From NCBI GenBank assembly GCA_002712305.1, contig PATE01000027.1, positions 8,534 through 17,703 of the forward strand: a stretch of 9,170 nt of DNA. The letters run 5' to 3'. Below are positions 1 to 9,083 of this stretch, in pieces. A program made the position numbers and the translations under genes. The notes under the pieces are model-generated. The model was not told the origin of the DNA. It made no database searches and worked only from the letters and a program-made list of their open reading frames with translations. How positions within the stretch are numbered: position 1 is the first letter of the stretch; each line of letters opens with the position of its first letter. The stretch is from Gemmatimonadota bacterium (GTDB lineage Bacteria; Latescibacterota; UBA2968; UBA8231).

Positions 1-1227
1 GCCAAACCAGTAGCCGTTTTCGGTCACGTGTCGGTCGATCTCGGCAAAGTCGGCCGATCCGTCGTCCTCCCACACATCGAAATCGATCCCTCGGACAGTA
101 CCCTCTTCGAAGCCCAGCAGCTGACGGAGATCGGGAATCGACGGTGTGTAGAGGATGCGGCCATCAGCCAGTCGCAATCTGCCCAGATGGCGGGGGACGG
201 CCAGATCACTTTCGACCAGATCGCACCGTCCGGCCAATTCGCGAATCTTGTCCTCATCGACGGCGATCCCCAGCCCGGGACCTTCGGGCACCGGTGATGT
301 CCCTGAATCGATATCGATCACATCGTCGGTGATGTCATCCGCATACTGATCCACTAGGTTGATCGTATGCCCGGCGGGCAGGGTGCACGCGAAATGCAGG
401 GCGAAGGCCTTCGTCAGCATACCACCGGTCAACTGAAAAACATTGAGTAGCCCCGCCCGCGCGTAGGCATGAGCGCGGATCAGAGCGTCGCCAAAACCAC
501 CACAATACTCCGCGATGATGTAGCCATCGGCGCAGCCCAGCAACATCTCCTGAATGCCGCCCAGGGGTGGCACGTGCATGAGGATGGGCACGTCGATTCG
601 TTGACGCAGTTGTCGCCAACCTTCCAGATCACTCAGAGACAGGGGATCCTCGATACAGGCCACACGGGGTGAACGCAACTGTTCGATGATCGGCAGGACG
701 GCGGCGGCGGTGCGGTTGTGGTTGAAGTCGTAGTGCATGCGGAAGCCGTCAGGAGCCACGTCATCGATGGCTCGGTGCTGTTCGAGAACGTCGTAGTGCT
801 GGCTCGTGTGAACCTTGAACAGCAGATACCCCTCTTCGGCGGCACGGGTGATCTCCGAGGCCATCGTCTCGGCATCTCCGGGTCGCGTCCATGCACAGAC
901 CGGGACCCGCTGGCGTTGCCGCGACCCCATCAACTGCCAGGCGGGCACATCCAGATGTTTGCCCACTGCGTCGTAACAAGCGGCGCCTAGACCCAAGGGA
1001 AGGGATTCATCGCGCAGAAAGGCCGCTGGTGACCTACCCACCATGGCCTCTCCCACAGCCGAAGGCGGCGGCGCGCACCGGTAGTCACCATATCCGACGA
1101 CGCCGTTGTCGCACGTGATGCGAAAGACCGTGCGCTGATCAATGGCCCGCATGCGCACAGCGGCCCCTTCGTAGCGGTCGGCAAACCGGGGGCGAATAGG
1201 AATGATGTCGACACTCGTAATACGCAT
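1..1227 (-). CDS. divergent mandelate racemase/enolase-superfamily protein (3'-truncated by window edge)
   Basis: The frame is open for 409 codons from ATG 1227 to the window edge with no stop, so the C-terminus is missing. The layout is that of the mandelate racemase/muconate lactonizing branch: an N-terminal capping part (1-105), then a barrel with K138-V-H140, a first metal-ligand motif YDFNHN (D167), a second motif CIEDPL (E193), a GG motif after E240 (YCGGFGD), and the family's usual closing motif PGLGIAVDED (317-326). Departures: at the third metal-ligand position, where relatives read roughly GGE, it reads ILMHV (215-219) with no acid, and where the base His is expected it reads VFQLTGG (263-269). 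About 80 further residues follow the point where the family normally ends. Family members abstract a proton alpha to a carboxylate in sugar-acid dehydration or racemisation; the substrate here is unknown and activity is uncertain. No Shine-Dalgarno sequence precedes the ATG; an out-of-frame ATG lies 4 bases upstream. It is divergent from the Msr gene. Confidence 0.85.
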   Translation of the reverse strand, partial: MRITSVDIIPIRPRFADRYEGAAVRMRAIDQRTVFRITCDNGVVGYGDYRCAPPPSAVGEAMVGRSPAAFLRDESLPLGLGAACYDAVGKHLDVPAWQLMGSRQRQRVPVCAWTRPGDAETMASEITRAAEEGYLLFKVHTSQHYDVLEQHRAIDDVAPDGFRMHYDFNHNRTAAAVLPIIEQLRSPRVACIEDPLSLSDLEGWRQLRQRIDVPILMHVPPLGGIQEMLLGCADGYIIAEYCGGFGDALIRAHAYARAGLLNVFQLTGGMLTKAFALHFACTLPAGHTINLVDQYADDITDDVIDIDSGTSPVPEGPGLGIAVDEDKIRELAGRCDLVESDLAVPRHLGRLRLADGRILYTPSIPDLRQLLGFEEGTVRGIDFDVWEDDGSADFAEIDRHVTENGYWFG

Positions 1228-1332: not shown

Positions 1333-1352
1333 CCGGTGACCAGAACCGACTC

Positions 1353-1380
1353 TTGTGGTACCGCGTCAACAGCCTATGAT
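1353..1380 (+). promoter_or_regulatory. sigma70-like promoter for the Msr gene
   Basis: TTGTGG (1353-1358), a 16-base spacer, then TATGAT (1375-1380; 5 of 6 bases match TATAAT). Transcription would start near 1387, giving a leader of about 50 bases to ATG 1438. This placement argues against translation from the upstream in-frame GTG at 1336. Confidence 0.45.
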
Positions 1381-1400
1381 CAGGCAGTCCCGGTGCACGA

Positions 1401-1417
1401 CCGCCTCTTGAAGGCGG
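1401..1417 (+). other. leader hairpin upstream of the Msr gene
   Basis: CCGCCT (1401-1406) pairs with AGGCGG (1412-1417) across a CTTGA loop: six perfect pairs in the predicted 5' leader, 20 bases before the start codon. It could affect translation or mRNA stability. Part of the stem would be coding if the upstream GTG start were used. Confidence 0.35.
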
Positions 1418-1437
1418 CCTTGAGAGAGCGCAAGAGA

Positions 1438-2547
1438 ATGAAGAACACCCGATGGCAGTGGCCTCGCTCGCGAGCGGGTCTGTTGATCGCGTCCGTCGCG
1501 TTGGCCTGCTCAGGACCGGCGGACACAGCCCAACCGATCACATCCGATGGCCCCCAACCATCCGCAGAGAACGCGGCGGCCGCCATCGTCGCCGGTGGCT
1601 GCTTCTGGTGCATGGAACCACCCTTTGAGAAGCTGGATGGCGTGATCTCTGTCGTGTCCGGGTACACAGGGGGGGATCAGGTCGATCCCAGCTATCAGCA
1701 GGTGTCGTCCGGCCGCACCAACCACGTGGAGGCGGTGCAGATCACCTACGATCCGGCCATCATCGGTTATCACCAATTGCTGCGCGTGTTCTGGAAGGGC
1801 ATCGACCCCACCGACGATGGCGGTCAGTTTGCCGATCGTGGGGCCCACTATCGCACAGCGATCTTCGTGCACAATGACTACGAGCGACAGGTGGCCGAGG
1901 CGTCGCGGGCAGGCCTCGTGGACAGTGGCATCTTCGGCAACGAGATCGTGACCGAGATCCGACCTGCCACCGCCTTCTACCCCGCAGAAGGATACCATCA
2001 GGACTACTACAAGAAGAACCCAACCCACTACTACGCCTATCGTCGTGGATCGGGTCGGACGGGGTTTCTCGAGCGCACCTGGGATGAGCAGGATCTGTCG
2101 GCAACTCTCGGTTTCGTCAAACCGCCAGATCCACTGCTGAAGTCGCATCTGGATCCGCTGCAGTTTCAGGTCACCCAGCACGACGGCACCGAACGTCCCT
2201 ATGCCAACACTTATTGGGACCACAAAGGAGAAGGAATCTACGTCGACATCGTCTCCGGCGAGCCCCTGTTTTCCTCGGCCGACAAGTTCAAGTCAGGCAC
2301 AGGGTGGCCCAGCTTTACCCGTCCGATGGACGATGAGGTGCTGGCGGAAGACGTGGATTACAAGATCGGTGTGCCGCGCACGGAGATTCGCAGCAAGCTG
2401 GCCGATTCACATCTGGGCCACGTGTTCAGCGATGGTCCAGCACCGACAGGCCTGCGTTACTGCATGAATTCAGCGTCCTTGCGATTTGTGTCGAAGAAAC
2501 AGATGGAACCGCTCGGTTACGGAAGCTGGTTGGCGTCGTTGGAGTAG
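1438..2547 (+). CDS. msrAB: MsrA-MsrB fusion, peptide methionine sulfoxide reductase lipoprotein
   Basis: A 369-residue bifunctional repair enzyme. The N-terminal MsrA domain (about 48-215) reduces methionine-S-sulfoxide and the C-terminal MsrB domain (about 240-365) reduces methionine-R-sulfoxide, normally using thioredoxin-like reductants. MsrA carries GGCFWCME with catalytic C55 and nearby C58, plus the family block [13 protein letters not shown]. MsrB carries [14 protein letters not shown] and [11 protein letters not shown] with catalytic C342. The common MsrB resolving Cys (GCGWPSF) is Thr288 here, and the two zinc CxxC pairs are absent, as in zinc-free MsrB types. ATG 1438 is preferred over in-frame GTG 1336 (34 residues earlier) because it begins with a signal peptide: K/R-rich start, hydrophobic stretch LLIASVALA, then C24 as probable lipidated Cys. 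So it should be membrane-anchored, acting outside the cytoplasm. RBS is modest (GAGAG/AAGAG stretches). A 79-codon-plus antisense reading frame under it is a shadow. Confidence 0.95.
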
Positions 2548-3118: not shown

Positions 3119-4390
3119 ATGATAGAGCCGATTCTTCTGACAAGCCGCGGTTCTGACCGTGCCACGGCCTACAACTTCAGCAACAAGATCCTGCGACATG
3201 ATCAGGGTCTGTTGGTGAGTTGGCTCGAGGCCCCATCGAAGAAGGGTGGATCGACGAGCATCCGACTGGGTGTCTGTGATGGGTCGACGGGCCAGCTGAC
3301 CAAGACCCTGTCGCTCGGCGAAGGCATCGACAATCACTGCGGGGCGACGATCCTGGGTGACGCCACGGGCCGAGTACATGCGTTCATCGGCGCGCATCAC
3401 GGAGACTTTCTCCATCGCGTGTCCGAGTCCCCAGCCGATTCGCATTCCTGGAGCGCACCCGAGAGCCTGGGCCCCAGTCACAGTTACCCGGCGGTCGTTT
3501 TGGATGAGGCAGGCACCCTCCACATGGCTTACCGCGAGAGTTACCGTGGCCCGGGCGAGACGTGGCAACTGGAATACATCCGCAAACCCGCTTCGGGCTC
3601 GTGGTCTTCACCAAGGTTGCTGGCCAAGTGTCCGGTGCCCGGCTACAGCCACTTCATGCATTCGCTGTCGGTCGGCCCCACAGGGGCGCTGCACATCACC
3701 CTGCAATTCCACTATGCGACCACTGGCAGCGCCAAACAGGGGAAGACGAAACTGGCGGCCCACCTGCACAGTACAGATGGCGGCGATCACTGGGCCAGCG
3801 AAGGCGAGGGGTGTGACCTGCCCATCACCATCGACAACGCTCGCCCCATCGTGAGTTACCTGCACGACGAGGAAGCCTCCATCCGAATCGGCACCCATGT
3901 GGTCGATGCTGACGACGAACCCTGGCTCTTCTGCGGAATGCCCGAGCCTCCCTATGGTGTCATGTTCCGGCACACGGCATCGGGTTGGCAGACAATCGAT
4001 CTGGAACAGGCGTGCCCGGGGCTCACCTTCGCCGCACCGGGGCGGGCGACGGCCACGTCTCGAGACGCATCAGGCCACGTCCACCTGCTGGTCAGCACCG
4101 CCCACAAGGGAGGGGGCGAGGGCTGGTATCACCCAGACAACGAACTTCACCACATCGCCTTCGACCCGAAAGGACGCGTGAGTCGTCACGAGCAACTCAC
4201 CTCGTCCGATCCGGCCGCCGCTCGTTGGTTGCCTTCGATCGAATTGTGGGACTGGACGGCGGCCGACGCGTCCTGCGATCAAGGACACTGGTACGCGTGG
4301 ACGAGTGGGCTGAGTGTAGGCTGGATGGACGCTGCCGACTATGAAGACACGCTCAAGACGGAAGTTTGGCTGGGCAGACTTCGCCCCTAA
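3119..4390 (+). CDS. BNR_4-like beta-propeller protein (sialidase/ulvan-lyase-like fold)
   Basis: A 423-residue protein made of repeated beta-rich blades. It contains a clear Asp-box, STDGGDHW (218-225), the hallmark of BNR/sialidase propellers, and blade-like units GDATGRVHAF (80-89), LDEAGTLHMAY (128-138), GPTGALHIT (186-194) and RDASGHVHLL (315-324). The DNHCG (71-75) and SYP...AYR (122-139) blocks resemble the BNR repeat-containing family (PF15892), a fold also used by some ulvan-type polysaccharide lyases; His73, His93/94, Tyr123 and Arg139 would be natural candidates for a sugar-binding or catalytic site. Known: such proteins bind or cut acidic polysaccharides. Inferred: a role in sugar-acid metabolism together with the neighbouring enolase-family enzyme. 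No signal peptide is visible, so it appears cytoplasmic, which is odd for a lyase of polymers; an oligosaccharide substrate is possible. A GAGAG ribosome binding site (3108-3112) sits 6 bases before the ATG. The last 4 bp overlap the opposing membrane-protein gene. Confidence 0.8.
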   Translation: MIEPILLTSRGSDRATAYNFSNKILRHDQGLLVSWLEAPSKKGGSTSIRLGVCDGSTGQLTKTLSLGEGIDNHCGATILGDATGRVHAFIGAHHGDFLHRVSESPADSHSWSAPESLGPSHSYPAVVLDEAGTLHMAYRESYRGPGETWQLEYIRKPASGSWSSPRLLAKCPVPGYSHFMHSLSVGPTGALHITLQFHYATTGSAKQGKTKLAAHLHSTDGGDHWASEGEGCDLPITIDNARPIVSYLHDEEASIRIGTHVVDADDEPWLFCGMPEPPYGVMFRHTASGWQTIDLEQACPGLTFAAPGRATATSRDASGHVHLLVSTAHKGGGEGWYHPDNELHHIAFDPKGRVSRHEQLTSSDPAAARWLPSIELWDWTAADASCDQGHWYAWTSGLSVGWMDAADYEDTLKTEVWLGRLRP

Positions 4391-4818
4391 AGAGAATCGG
4401 TGGACGTGGGCTGCTCCGTCACACGCCATCGACGCAACCACCAGGCCGTGGCAAGGGAAAAGGCTGCCACAACGCCCAGAATCAGGGCCAGACGGGTCCA
4501 CGGTTCGTCCATGGCCTGACGAACTTGCACCATCGTCCACAGCGTCCGGAGCCACTCGAGGGCACCGATCACCAGTAGACCCTGCAGCAGCCGGAGCAAG
4601 GCCAGCTTGCGAGGGATCAGCAACAGCGGCAGCAGCAGACACAGAACGACGACGACGATCTGACCGTCTCGCAGAAAGTGAGCGGCCAGAAGTACTGCAC
4701 TCAGAATCGTCGGTATCGCGCGGACCAATCGGGCCTCGTTCGAGTAGGCGGGCCGCTCACGGTACGACGCGACGCCGAGTTTCGTCAACGAGGGCTCGCG
4801 CTCGGGGCGCCTACCCAC
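4387..4818 (-). CDS. small four-helix integral membrane protein, function unknown
   Basis: A 143-residue protein with four predicted membrane segments at about 32-49 (AIPTILSAVLLAAHFL), 53-68 (QIVVVVLCLLLPLLLI), 72-93 and 108-128 (RLALILGVVAAFSLATA), with basic residues at the ends of several helices. Between helices 3 and 4 is the segment ALEWLRTLWTMVQVR (86-100), then PWTRLALILG. This general pattern recurs, from memory, in small uncharacterised bacterial inner-membrane proteins; I cannot name a family. Start GTG 4818 is supported by AGGA with a 7-base spacer; later TTG starts (codon 11 or 31) would remove the charged N-terminal stretch of about 30 residues. It overlaps the BNR gene stop to stop (shared CTAA) and its start lies 14 bp from the next gene's start, so its promoter probably lies inside that enzyme gene. 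Confidence 0.75.
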   Translation of the reverse strand: MGRRPEREPSLTKLGVASYRERPAYSNEARLVRAIPTILSAVLLAAHFLRDGQIVVVVLCLLLPLLLIPRKLALLRLLQGLLVIGALEWLRTLWTMVQVRQAMDEPWTRLALILGVVAAFSLATAWWLRRWRVTEQPTSTDSL

Positions 4819-4832
4819 GGAGTGATCCTGCC
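4819..4832. promoter_or_regulatory. 14-bp divergent gap holding two opposed ribosome binding sites
   Basis: For the plus gene, GGAG (4819-4822) lies 10 bases before ATG 4833. For the minus gene, AGGA (complement of 4826-4829) lies 7 bases before GTG 4818. No promoter fits in the gap, so the two leaders would overlap in antisense. Confidence 0.6.
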
Positions 4833-5900
4833 ATGGAAATCGTTTCGATAAGATCCTTCATGCCCACCGCCGCTCGCAAGCCGGCCGACTGGCGCGGCTG
4901 GATGGGGCAGATCTGCGTCCGACTCGAGACCGACGAGGGTCAGGTGGGTTACGGCATGGGCGGCGGGGGAGAGGCGGGGATGCACGTGATCGACACCGTT
5001 CTGCGCGGCGTCCTGGAGAAGGCGGATCCCACGCCGATCGAAGATCTCTGGGAGGAGATGTTCAGCGCCACTCTCGCCTTTGGCCGCAAGGGTCTGGCCA
5101 TCATGGCCATCTCGGCGGTGGACCTTGCCCTCTGGGATCTGCGCGCCAAGGCAAAGGACACGACCGTCGCGCACCTGTTGAGCGAACAGCCCACTGCGCG
5201 CCTTCCCATGTATCGGACGATCTCAAAGGATGCAGACCCCAACCGCTGGCTGGGACAGATCGAGCAAGCCCTCGCCGAAGGGTATGAGGCGGTGAAGATC
5301 GGCGGCTTGGGGCAGATGGATCCTACCACCGACGCCGACGCGATCGTCGACATGATGAGGCAGGCGCGACGCGTCTCGGGTGATATCCGCCTCATGGCGG
5401 ATGTGGGTATGAGATGGCAGGACGTCGATGCTGTAGCGGCTTTGTGCCACCGACTGGCCGAGGTCGATCTGGGGTGGCTGGAAGAGCCTCTGCCCGCAGA
5501 CGATCTCGACGGCTACGCGCGACTGGCCGCCACCTCACCTGTGCCCATCGCCGGAGGCGAACACGAATTCACCGCTCGCGGATTCGCCGAGCTGATGGCC
5601 CGTGGTGCGCACCACATCTACCAACCTGATGTGTGCTGGTGTGGGGGCCTGACTCAACTGCTGGAAATCTACCGCCTGGCAAGAACGCATCACGTGCAGG
5701 TCTGCCCCCACCGAGGTTCAGAGGCATGGTCGCTGCCGGCGCTGCAGACGGTGGACCCGAGTCCCCTGGCAGAAAGTGGGCGCCCCTGGATGGCATGGGT
5801 CGGTGGCGCACGATGGGCAGATGCGCACGTCGAAGCATCGGCTCGCCGGGGATTCGGCGTCGACGAGCAGGCCCTGGAAAACTCTACGTCCCCGGACTGA
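4833..5900 (+). CDS. enolase-superfamily sugar-acid dehydratase, L-rhamnonate dehydratase-like
   Basis: A 355-residue mandelate racemase-type enzyme with a complete active-site signature. Three metal ligands are seen: D190 (ADVGMRW), E217/E218 (WLEEPL) and E243 (AGGEHEFT). The His-Asp dyad is D266 (YQPDVCWCGG) and H293 (CPHRGSE). At the second-strand base position it has K155 in VKIGG, so the KxK pair of mandelate racemase is reduced to a single Lys. The GEHEFTxRGF...YQPDVCWCGGLT stretch is close to L-rhamnonate dehydratases, which dehydrate L-rhamnonate to 2-keto-3-deoxy-L-rhamnonate using Mg2+; related six-carbon or five-carbon sugar acids are alternatives. Length is slightly short of the usual 380-400. 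The reading frame stays open 492 bases upstream, but ATG 4833 is chosen because it starts the standard capping domain (MEIVSIRSFMP) and has GGAG upstream. It should be cytoplasmic. The gene ends convergent with the acyltransferase gene. Confidence 0.9.
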   Translation: MEIVSIRSFMPTAARKPADWRGWMGQICVRLETDEGQVGYGMGGGGEAGMHVIDTVLRGVLEKADPTPIEDLWEEMFSATLAFGRKGLAIMAISAVDLALWDLRAKAKDTTVAHLLSEQPTARLPMYRTISKDADPNRWLGQIEQALAEGYEAVKIGGLGQMDPTTDADAIVDMMRQARRVSGDIRLMADVGMRWQDVDAVAALCHRLAEVDLGWLEEPLPADDLDGYARLAATSPVPIAGGEHEFTARGFAELMARGAHHIYQPDVCWCGGLTQLLEIYRLARTHHVQVCPHRGSEAWSLPALQTVDPSPLAESGRPWMAWVGGARWADAHVEASARRGFGVDEQALENSTSPD

Positions 5901-5972: not shown

Positions 5973-6000
5973 CAAGGATTCGGCATCAAGGATTCGGATT
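5973..6000. repeat. 14-bp tandem direct repeat spanning a stop codon
   Basis: CAAGGATTCGGCAT (5973-5986) is followed directly by CAAGGATTCGGATT (5987-6000): 11 identical leading bases at a 14-bp period. The second copy encodes the last residues (NPNP) and stop codon of the minus-strand acyltransferase; the first lies just beyond its stop. It looks like a local slippage duplication. Confidence 0.6.
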
Positions 6001-7914
6001 CAACAACTGGGCGATGTGGATCGCCTGAAACAAGGTCGCCGGTTCCAACTGAGTTCGCAGGGCGCGTTTGCGTGGCAGCAATGTGGTTTCCCCCGGGATC
6101 GGCGGCGAGACGACGACCTCCACCGTTCCCGGTCGAATGTTGGAATTGCCCGCCGGACACTTTGGCCACAACTGGTGGATGCCGCGCATGGCGATGGGAA
6201 CCAACACGATGTCGGCGGGTAAATACGCGAACAGTGCGTGCTGCATGGGCAGCACTTGTAGATCATAGGCCGAGGTGGTGCCTGCACCGTACACCACTCC
6301 CGGGCGCTCTTCCAGAACCTTGGCGAAACGAGCGGTGGGCGCGGCGGAGTCGTCGGATCGATCCAGGATCACGTAGCCGTCGATTTCTTCCAGCAATCGA
6401 TCCGCCGTCTTGGCGTCCACGCCGATGAGACTGATCGTACGTCCGGCAATCTTGAGATCGGTCGGTGTCGTGAGCCCCGCACGGGCGAGCATGCTGCACG
6501 GCTGCGGACCGTCCCAGCCCATGGCCTCGATCATCTGCGGCGACGAGAGGGTCGTATACATCACGGGATGGTCGAGCAGACTCTGGTGGGTTGGAAAAAA
6601 CACAACGCGTCGTTTGCCACTGGCCAGTTCGAGTTTCTGAGCCATCTGGGCAAAACGGGGATCGATCGTGATCTGCACGTCGACACCGAACAGATCCAAA
6701 GTGCTTCGCCCCCAATCCGAAGCCGCATCCCACGACGATTGCAGTCGCTCGGCATCAGAAAGCTGCTGCTTCTTCAGCCGCACCGTGTGTTGGGTTCGCC
6801 GACGAAAAAGTCCCACCCACTTCATCAGCTTCACTCGACGCGACCACTTCCCATGTTCGGCTGACGCACCCACGTGGGGATAATCGACGTAGCGGCCCTT
6901 CGCCTCACCGGCCAGCAGCGGTGGCAGTTGGATTTCGGCCAGATCGACGTTACCTCGCTTCTGCAGACGGCGCGCGCCCTTCACCAACTTCGTCGTCAGA
7001 TCGATCATGTCTCGCGTCAGGTAGCTGTACTGCTGGCCATACCAATAGTCGCGAGGCCGAATCTGAGCCGGATCTTCCAGATGGGCTTCGAGAAACTCCA
7101 GCAGCATGCCCTGCAGAAGCCGGACGTAGTCGACCAACTGTGAACGCCAGCGTTCGGCGACCTTGCCACGTAACGTCTCGGCCAGCAGTTCGATATCGGT
7201 AACGACCTTCCAAACACTGATGCCGAACCAGATGAAGTTGCTGAAGCAGTTGTAGCGAATCGCCAGGTGTTCGCCCGCGGCGAGAAAATCGACGACCTGC
7301 TCGGCGATACGACAAAGCTGCGTTCGCAGAGAAGCCTGGCCGACGCCGTCCACGCGATACAGATCATTCCAACGAGGATCGTCTTCGGCTGGGGCTGCGC
7401 TGATCTTGCCCGCCACGGATGCGGCATGGGCCAGAGGGGCGCGGGCGACTCTGAATTCGACGAGGGCCGCTTCACCGTCGTCAAGCGGCACCGGATTGGG
7501 ACGGGCCAGGGCGTCGAGGTAGACGGTGTGGTACAGTTGACCAAACTCAGCCTCGTCACCCCTGCCTGCGGTTACGAATTCATCACGCAGGCCGAGGAAG
7601 GCAACATTGGCATTGAAGTAGGTCGGCTCCAGATCGCGAAAGCGATCGTGGGCGTCACCGAGACGCTGCTCCCGCCGTGACGGAATGCCGTCGTAGATGG
7701 TGGTGATCAACCATTGACGGTGGGTAAGACCCTCGATATTGACGGTGCCGTCGCTGTAGGAGGGCCACTCGACACGCTGTGATGGTTCGCCCGCGAAATG
7801 ACCGTCCAACAGGGCGACACGCAGGAGCTCTCCCGCCGCTTCATCATAGCGGAGAAGGATCTCGTCGAGGCGTTGTCGAACTTCGGCGAGGGCTACCTGT
7901 AGATCGGGTGGCAT
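5986..7914 (-). CDS. large protein with C-terminal PlsC-like glycerolipid acyltransferase domain
   Basis: A 642-residue protein. The C-terminal third (about 405-610) reads as a PlsC/PlsB-family acyltransferase, which moves a fatty acyl group to glycerol-3-phosphate or a lysolipid: motif I is HQSLLD (443-448, the HX4D form), a block DGYVILDRS (512-520) follows, then VYGAGTTS (541-548) at the position of FPEGTRS, then VPIAMRG (572-578) and PGTVEVVVSPPI (595-606). The acid of the usual EGT motif is Ala544 here. The first ~400 residues are mostly predicted helical, with hydrophilic helices such as LAEVRQRLDEILLRYDEAAGE and a central aromatic-rich segment (222-237); I recognise no domain. No clear signal peptide or strong transmembrane helix is seen, so peripheral membrane attachment is likely. 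The frame stays open to 8157, but ATG 7914 is preferred because upstream sequence overlaps the divergent neighbour; an in-frame TTG lies 3 codons earlier. No good ribosome binding site is visible. Confidence 0.75.
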   Translation of the reverse strand: MPPDLQVALAEVRQRLDEILLRYDEAAGELLRVALLDGHFAGEPSQRVEWPSYSDGTVNIEGLTHRQWLITTIYDGIPSRREQRLGDAHDRFRDLEPTYFNANVAFLGLRDEFVTAGRGDEAEFGQLYHTVYLDALARPNPVPLDDGEAALVEFRVARAPLAHAASVAGKISAAPAEDDPRWNDLYRVDGVGQASLRTQLCRIAEQVVDFLAAGEHLAIRYNCFSNFIWFGISVWKVVTDIELLAETLRGKVAERWRSQLVDYVRLLQGMLLEFLEAHLEDPAQIRPRDYWYGQQYSYLTRDMIDLTTKLVKGARRLQKRGNVDLAEIQLPPLLAGEAKGRYVDYPHVGASAEHGKWSRRVKLMKWVGLFRRRTQHTVRLKKQQLSDAERLQSSWDAASDWGRSTLDLFGVDVQITIDPRFAQMAQKLELASGKRRVVFFPTHQSLLDHPVMYTTLSSPQMIEAMGWDGPQPCSMLARAGLTTPTDLKIAGRTISLIGVDAKTADRLLEEIDGYVILDRSDDSAAPTARFAKVLEERPGVVYGAGTTSAYDLQVLPMQHALFAYLPADIVLVPIAMRGIHQLWPKCPAGNSNIRPGTVEVVVSPPIPGETTLLPRKRALRTQLEPATLFQAIHIAQLLNPNP

Positions 7915-8030
7915 CGAAATCAAGCACCGGAGGAGTATTGTCGATTCAAGCTGGCGCGTACGGGCAGACGTCCTACCTTCGCGCGCAGATATTCGAACAT
8001 ACGACCCCAAGCCAGAGGTGACCAAGATAC

Positions 8031-9083
8031 ATGAGTACACATCGGATCGGATTGATCGGCTGCGGCGGCATTGCGGGTGCCTGGATTCGGGCAGTAGCCG
8101 AGCACGATGAGTGTCAGATCGACTGGGCCTTCGATCTGGATGCGGAGGCGGCCACACGCCGAGCCGAGGAGGTCTCCGGCCAGGCGATCACCGATCTGGA
8201 CAAGGGGTTGGCCTCAGCCGTCGATCTGGTCGTCATCGGCACACCTACGTCCAGCCATCCAACCCTTGTGCAGCAGGCGGCGACCGCGGGCAAACACGTC
8301 ATGTGCGAGAAACCGATGGCCCTGGGTCTGGACGACTGTCAGAAGATGATCGACGCCTGTGAAGCGGCCGGGGTGCAACTGGCCATCGGTCACAGCCTCC
8401 GCTTCTGGGGCGCCTTTCTCAAGACGCGAAAACTGATCGCCGAAGGGGCGATTGGAACACCGGTCTCCGGTAGCATCGACCGACTCGGAACGGCAAAGGC
8501 TCAGGCCGCCGAGGAAGTGGAGCCAGCCGCCGATCACTGGCGCAACGATCCGGCCAACACCGGCGGTCACGCGCTGGAGGGATTCATCCACGAACTCGAT
8601 TTCACGCGATCCGTTTTTGGCGACGTGGCGACGGTGACCTGCGAGATCGGCGAAGAGCGCGCGGTGGACGGGTTTGTGAGCCCGCAGATCATTCAGGGCG
8701 TGGTTGGCTTCGAAAATGGCGCAGTCGTGACGACGCGTACGGGCAGTACAGTCGGCGTCCCGACGCGAGGTTATTGGATTGCCGGCAGCGAAGGAGGGCT
8801 GCGTTTTGATGGCTGGGGAGGTCCGGTCGAACTCTATCGCCGCGACGCGAAAGATGTGGAACTCGTGGCGTGCGAGCAGGTGTACGCCTACCACCTTGAG
8901 CTGAAGGATCTGACCGACGCCATCGATGGCGTGCACGCCAGGCCTGAGAATGACGGCGCCAACGGACTTGCCAATGTCAGTCTTGGACTGGCCCTCTATC
9001 GTGCCTACGAAACCGGCTCGCGCGTAAGCTTCACCGACGGCGTGGCCGACCTGCCTCAGGGGTATCGAAACCTCAAATACTGA
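8031..9083 (+). CDS. Gfo/Idh/MocA-family NAD(P)-dependent oxidoreductase
   Basis: A 350-residue enzyme of normal family length. The N-terminal Rossmann domain (1-125) has the dinucleotide motif GLIGCGGIAGAW (7-18), an acidic residue at the end of the second strand (D35/D37) suggesting NAD preference, VIGTPTSSH (68-76) and the family motif CEKPMAL (92-98) with K94. The C-terminal alpha/beta domain has HWRNDPANTGGHALEGFIHELD (169-190, split by reading), where H187 and D190 match the usual HxxD catalytic pair; the commonly seen D of the preceding GG-x-x-x-D motif is E183. Family members oxidise or reduce a hydroxyl of sugars, inositols or sugar acids; the substrate cannot be read. AGAGGTGA (8014-8021) precedes the ATG by about 9 bases. 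There is no signal peptide, so it is cytoplasmic. It is divergent from the acyltransferase gene across 116 bp in which I see no convincing promoter. Confidence 0.92.
   Translation: MSTHRIGLIGCGGIAGAWIRAVAEHDECQIDWAFDLDAEAATRRAEEVSGQAITDLDKGLASAVDLVVIGTPTSSHPTLVQQAATAGKHVMCEKPMALGLDDCQKMIDACEAAGVQLAIGHSLRFWGAFLKTRKLIAEGAIGTPVSGSIDRLGTAKAQAAEEVEPAADHWRNDPANTGGHALEGFIHELDFTRSVFGDVATVTCEIGEERAVDGFVSPQIIQGVVGFENGAVVTTRTGSTVGVPTRGYWIAGSEGGLRFDGWGGPVELYRRDAKDVELVACEQVYAYHLELKDLTDAIDGVHARPENDGANGLANVSLGLALYRAYETGSRVSFTDGVADLPQGYRNLKY

Follow-up and report, generated by a model that had tools for sequence, protein, structure and literature searches.

An expanded clade of enolase-superfamily proteins with a conserved histidine at the third metal-ligand position

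In the enolase superfamily many reactions are served by a single conserved metal site, and the family is a textbook example of this. An Asp, Glu or Asn third ligand is an established feature of its characterised members, without amounting to a formal definition, and to our knowledge the third ligands of these members are acidic or amide only. What, then, is encoded by a superfamily gene in which a histidine occupies this position? The gene in question lies on the minus strand at the left edge of the window (1..1227), the whole 9,170-nucleotide stretch that we analysed, on one contig (C48) of a 4.77 Mb source genome assembled in 146 contigs (G000). The part inside the window covers residues 1-409 of a 412-residue protein and matches PF13378 with 74.1 bits.

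The gene and its neighbours

The original prediction was made on a gene cut by the window edge. We retrieved the remainder from the contig to the left, which adds three codons only and completes the 412-residue protein (L009:8522-9760); one of these codons, close to the stop, has an ambiguous base. An assembly or window-edge artefact is thereby ruled out.

The window also encodes a BNR_4 protein, a rhamnonate-dehydratase-like enolase and a Gfo/Idh/MocA dehydrogenase. This second enolase (4341-5900, plus strand) is a canonical mandelate-racemase-type protein whose best NCBIfam match, L-rhamnonate dehydratase, falls below the cut-off; the first ~160 codons of its reading frame begin within the end of the BNR_4 gene and are probably not translated. 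The comparison with L-rhamnonate dehydratase that had been suggested for gene 1-1227 suits this neighbour (window ~4341-5900) instead. Elsewhere in the window are an MsrA-MsrB fusion protein that appears to carry an N-terminal export signal (1336-2547, plus strand) and a reading frame of 723 codons without any Pfam match (5986-8157, minus strand).

Active-site residues and the clade that shares them

D167 (727..729, minus strand, as for all residues below), at the end of barrel strand 3 and within RMHYDFN, and E193 (649..651), at the end of strand 4 and within ACIEDP, correspond in alignments to the superfamily's first two metal ligands. Both are present in 120/120 rows of an alignment that represents ~120 homologues and includes the query more than once. 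These two ligand motifs, as originally predicted, keep their place. The third position is changed. H218 (574..576), in PILMH after strand 5, aligns on the Asp of PLMID in 2p88 and on Asn in 4dye, and is invariant both in the 120 rows and in all 32 members of the clade described below. In nearly all other types this P+4 column holds Asp, Asn or Gly(-Glu), both in MAFFT alignments and when PDB chains are aligned with HMMER. A misalignment in which V219 is the true third ligand was ruled out, since H218 and not V219 is invariant.

The catalytic base position is altered as well. Q265 (433..435), within VFQLTGG, aligns on the strand 7 catalytic His of 3sjn and 4dye in profile alignments, and is Gln in 120/120 rows and in 28/32 clade members. 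That the third ligand is altered and the base His missing had been read from this sequence before, and both readings stand. A change that had gone unremarked is that the KxK motif of strand 2 (136-140) has become KxH (K138-V-H140, 808..816): K138 is found in 120/120 rows and H140 in 110/120, and in the 10 rows where this His is absent the column holds Lys. W113 (889..891), the last residue of barrel strand 1 (107-113), is kept in 119 rows and in 31/32 clade members and is a signature of the clade. Two further positions are nearly as constant, H278 (118 of 120 rows) and D389 (113/120).

Do these changes mark a protein that has given up catalysis? A non-catalytic relative, either a binding or regulatory protein or a partner subunit of a canonical enolase, would fit a protein that has lost both the strand 7 His and the second Lys of KxK, and the superfamily offers a precedent for a partner protein in the GlucDRP-GlucD complex (4gyp), which is among our structural matches. 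The pattern of conservation argues against it. The homologues come from metagenome-assembled genomes labelled Latescibacterota, Poribacteria, Gemmatimonadota, Chloroflexi/Chloroflexota and Zixibacteria, and one Chromatiales; over ~45-50% identity and several phyla, the strand-end residues W113, K138, D167, E193, H218 and Q265 are conserved. Conservation is concentrated in the active site, and KxK itself is retained in 10/120 rows. Compared with a 77% identical orthologue in another genome (G015), third codon positions hold 210 of the 346 differences, with dN ~0.19, dS ~1.36 and dN/dS ~0.14. The protein is under purifying selection, which together with the invariant residues disfavours a decayed relative; a lone degenerate paralogue was ruled out by the ~120 homologues and the low dN/dS. 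The non-catalytic alternative raised by the original prediction therefore seems to us quite improbable.

The source genome holds 74 family matches. Of its 71 near-complete superfamily members, 27 carry His at the third-ligand column. In a FastTree phylogeny built without the third-ligand and Q265 columns, 25 of the 27 fall with seven outside sequences into one clade that contains no other member (SH-like support 0.993). Three columns mark this clade against 53 other superfamily members: W113, H218 and Q265, at the frequencies given above. Among the 53, the Q265 column is His in 43, and the W113 column is mostly Ser, His, Thr or Cys. A KxH subclade is nested within the group with support 0.995. 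The two remaining His paralogues, L041 (G000:C107) and L033 (G000:C78), are placed outside the clade, which suggests independent origins or alignment ambiguity. Within the class, 47/47 genomes have relatives at E 1e-60 or better, against 0/17 genomes from other classes of the phylum. Cultured matches on plasmids, such as those from Halorussus, Haladaptatus and Sinorhizobium, were rejected as members because their residue at the site is Asn, Gly-Glu or Asp.

The genome also contains a fragment (L184, G000:C127:32269-32583) in which nothing but the tail of a D-E-H enolase is present (profile positions 308-404), perhaps a decayed copy. Another locus (L208:569-2899; G000:C12, ~26,870-29,200) encodes a D-E-H clade enolase whose reading frame runs on into a C-terminal BNR sialidase-like domain; a genome of the same genus (G001, L204) has this fusion too, and there the domain is 79% identical.

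Fold, C-terminal extension and known subgroups

An AlphaFold2 model (36 sequences, without metal; pLDDT 91.3, pTM 0.90) has the enolase-superfamily architecture, a capping alpha+beta domain and a (beta/alpha)7beta barrel. Its barrel strands end at W113, H140, D167, E193, residue 217 (followed by H218) and Q265. The top fold matches are the putative muconate cycloisomerase 2pgw (Z 35.1), GlucDRP 4il0 (Z 35.1) and the muconate lactonizing enzyme 3dgb (Z 34.8). Of the superfamily features, strands 3 and 4 each end in an Asp/Glu ligand, and the Asp/Glu/Asn third ligand at the end of strand 5 is replaced by His. Despite this third ligand, membership of the superfamily stands on fold and homology.

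The PGLGIAVDED closing motif (residues 317-326) is followed by ~83-86 residues. This C-terminal extension (residues 327-409 within the window, 1..249) is predicted to be an ordered beta/alpha segment with a W-x-D-D-G-S motif; in the full model it comprises strands at 347-352, 358-361 and 382-387 and helices at 367-371 and 392-404, and folded alone it reaches pLDDT 82.7. Searches of the PDB with the tail gave no informative match (Foldseek best E ~1; VIA-align best Z 4.2), which is not proof of a new fold. The extension noted originally is thus present and ordered in prediction, and it is not peculiar to this gene: it occurs in 16 of the 25 clade members of the source genome and is absent from 9. 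That the extension might prove common among homologues had been named as a point against its significance, and this is borne out in part, as it is the feature of a subclade (support 0.869).

To which of the known subgroups does the protein belong? The superfamily has been split into seven (PMC9795676), and alignments place the protein in none of the three that we compared. It lacks the features of the mandelate racemase subgroup, having KxH, Q265 and no Asp partner of the His-Asp dyad (strands 7 and 6). With the muconate lactonizing enzyme/N-succinyl amino acid racemase subgroup (2p88, 1muc) it shares the fold (Z 34), K138, D167, E193 and the PGLG closing motif. It differs from that subgroup in having His where 2p88 and 1muc have an Asp third ligand, KxH for KxK, no strand 6 Lys, Gln on strand 7, and the C-terminal extension. 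The muconate/chloromuconate cycloisomerase model TIGR02534 scores 64 bits against a cut-off of 334.95, and no NCBIfam equivalog attains its cut-off with this protein.

Glucarate dehydratase-like proteins (4dye/2oqh, 1ec7 and GlucDRP 4il0/4gyp) rank with the best matches by sequence and by fold, at 18-24% identity, and they too have a neutral third-ligand residue (Asn) and a longer C-terminus. This likeness raises another explanation, that we are looking at an ordinary Mg2+ enzyme that tolerates the neutral His218 as its third ligand and performs standard dehydration. The nearest PDB sequences, 2oqh and 4dye, carry Asn at the H218 column, and both Asn-type and Asp-type relatives branch close to the clade. 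However, glucarate dehydratase-like proteins combine the Asn ligand with a strand 7 His, as in 4dye, where our protein has Gln. Since this Gln comes together with the new Trp on strand 1, the active site has changed as a whole, and we regard an ordinary Mg2+ dehydratase as rather unlikely.

A profile search found no PDB member of the clade: the best match scored 153 bits, and the site His was absent from the best five alignments. PDB searches with two extension-free clade members returned distant chains only. A literature search, with most subscription journals outside its scope, turned up no report of a His third ligand within the enolase superfamily, and it is likely, but not certain, that the D-E-H clade is new to the literature. 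Among the matches found, the clade is a well-defined group, and no solved structure, metal assay, activity or assigned function came to light for any of its members.

Proposed chemistry and its biological setting

We propose, with a probability of about one half, that this is a catalytically competent, uncharacterised clade with a one-metal site formed by D167, E193 and H218 and with one-base chemistry. The proposal draws on where the residues lie and on what is established about the superfamily. The clade would be either a descendant or a sister group of muconate-lactonizing-enzyme-like proteins whose third ligand is Asp. The three residues would hold one divalent metal ion, perhaps softer than Mg2+, such as Mn2+, Fe2+ or Zn2+, and the substrate carboxylate would be bound by this metal and K138. 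With the second base lost, be it the Lys of strand 6 or the His of strand 7 with its Asp, Q265 may position the substrate, and H140 on strand 2, or Lys in other clade members, would be the sole base that abstracts a proton. Such one-base chemistry would probably lead to lactone cycloisomerisation or to the loss of water from a sugar acid by beta-elimination, and not to racemisation. Of the readings that the original prediction offered, a metal site using His is the best supported; metal binding itself is what we infer from the position of H218.

Mg2+ sites that combine a His with two carboxylates are unusual, and the histidine could instead mean that the metal has been lost and that His acts as a base. 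D167, E193, H218 and H140 would then form an acid/base and hydrogen-bond network in a metal-free, or differently based, enzyme, with His218 as the base and not a ligand. In keeping with this, the His replaces an acid exactly at the metal position, and a new base may be needed because the usual one on strand 7 is missing. However, D167 and E193 are strictly invariant alongside H218, as expected of ligands, and the P+4 position is the third-ligand position in muconate-cycloisomerase-type proteins. We consider an enzyme of this kind unlikely. A bolder version of the one-metal proposal is that the clade is a further subgroup beside the seven listed, with a two-carboxylate/one-histidine site, a transition metal and a reaction new to the superfamily, present as dozens of paralogues in Latescibacterota and relatives. 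This is less likely than not, and we advance it tentatively.

What might the substrates be? In the window, the BNR_4, rhamnonate-dehydratase-like enolase and Gfo/Idh/MocA genes are sugar-related, and near clade members elsewhere lie further genes of this kind: a DHDPS-type aldolase, Gfo/Idh/MocA, xylose-isomerase-like, aldo/keto reductase and polysaccharide deacetylase genes. The fusion to a BNR sialidase-like domain, conserved in two genomes, fits the same theme. We found no conserved operon or neighbourhood among the orthologues, and since their gene neighbours differ, this context points only weakly to a substrate class. A parallel exists in the SAR202 bacteria, uncultured or slow-growing marine bacteria whose COG4948 expansion likewise amounts to tens of enolase-superfamily paralogues in each (PMC6946804, PMC10444878). 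Growth on sugar acids and lactones is described for cultured SAR202 bacteria that carry 80 COG4948 genes (PMC10444878), and L-fucose, L-rhamnose and the corresponding acids and lactones are used by SAR202 bacteria in which COG4948 genes are about as numerous as here (PMC10444878; PMC6946804). The papers treat the SAR202 proteins as canonical mandelate racemase-type enzymes, and the passages cited here mention no His ligand (PMC6946804, PMC10444878).

Why would a histidine at this position matter? If our proposal is true, a strongly conserved, monophyletic D-E-H clade with ~25 copies in a single genome offers a natural experiment on a change in the shared half of the active site. COG4948 expansions in abundant uncultured bacteria are currently annotated as ordinary dehydratases or racemases, and the many paralogues of this clade would help to assign sugar-acid catabolism in these organisms.
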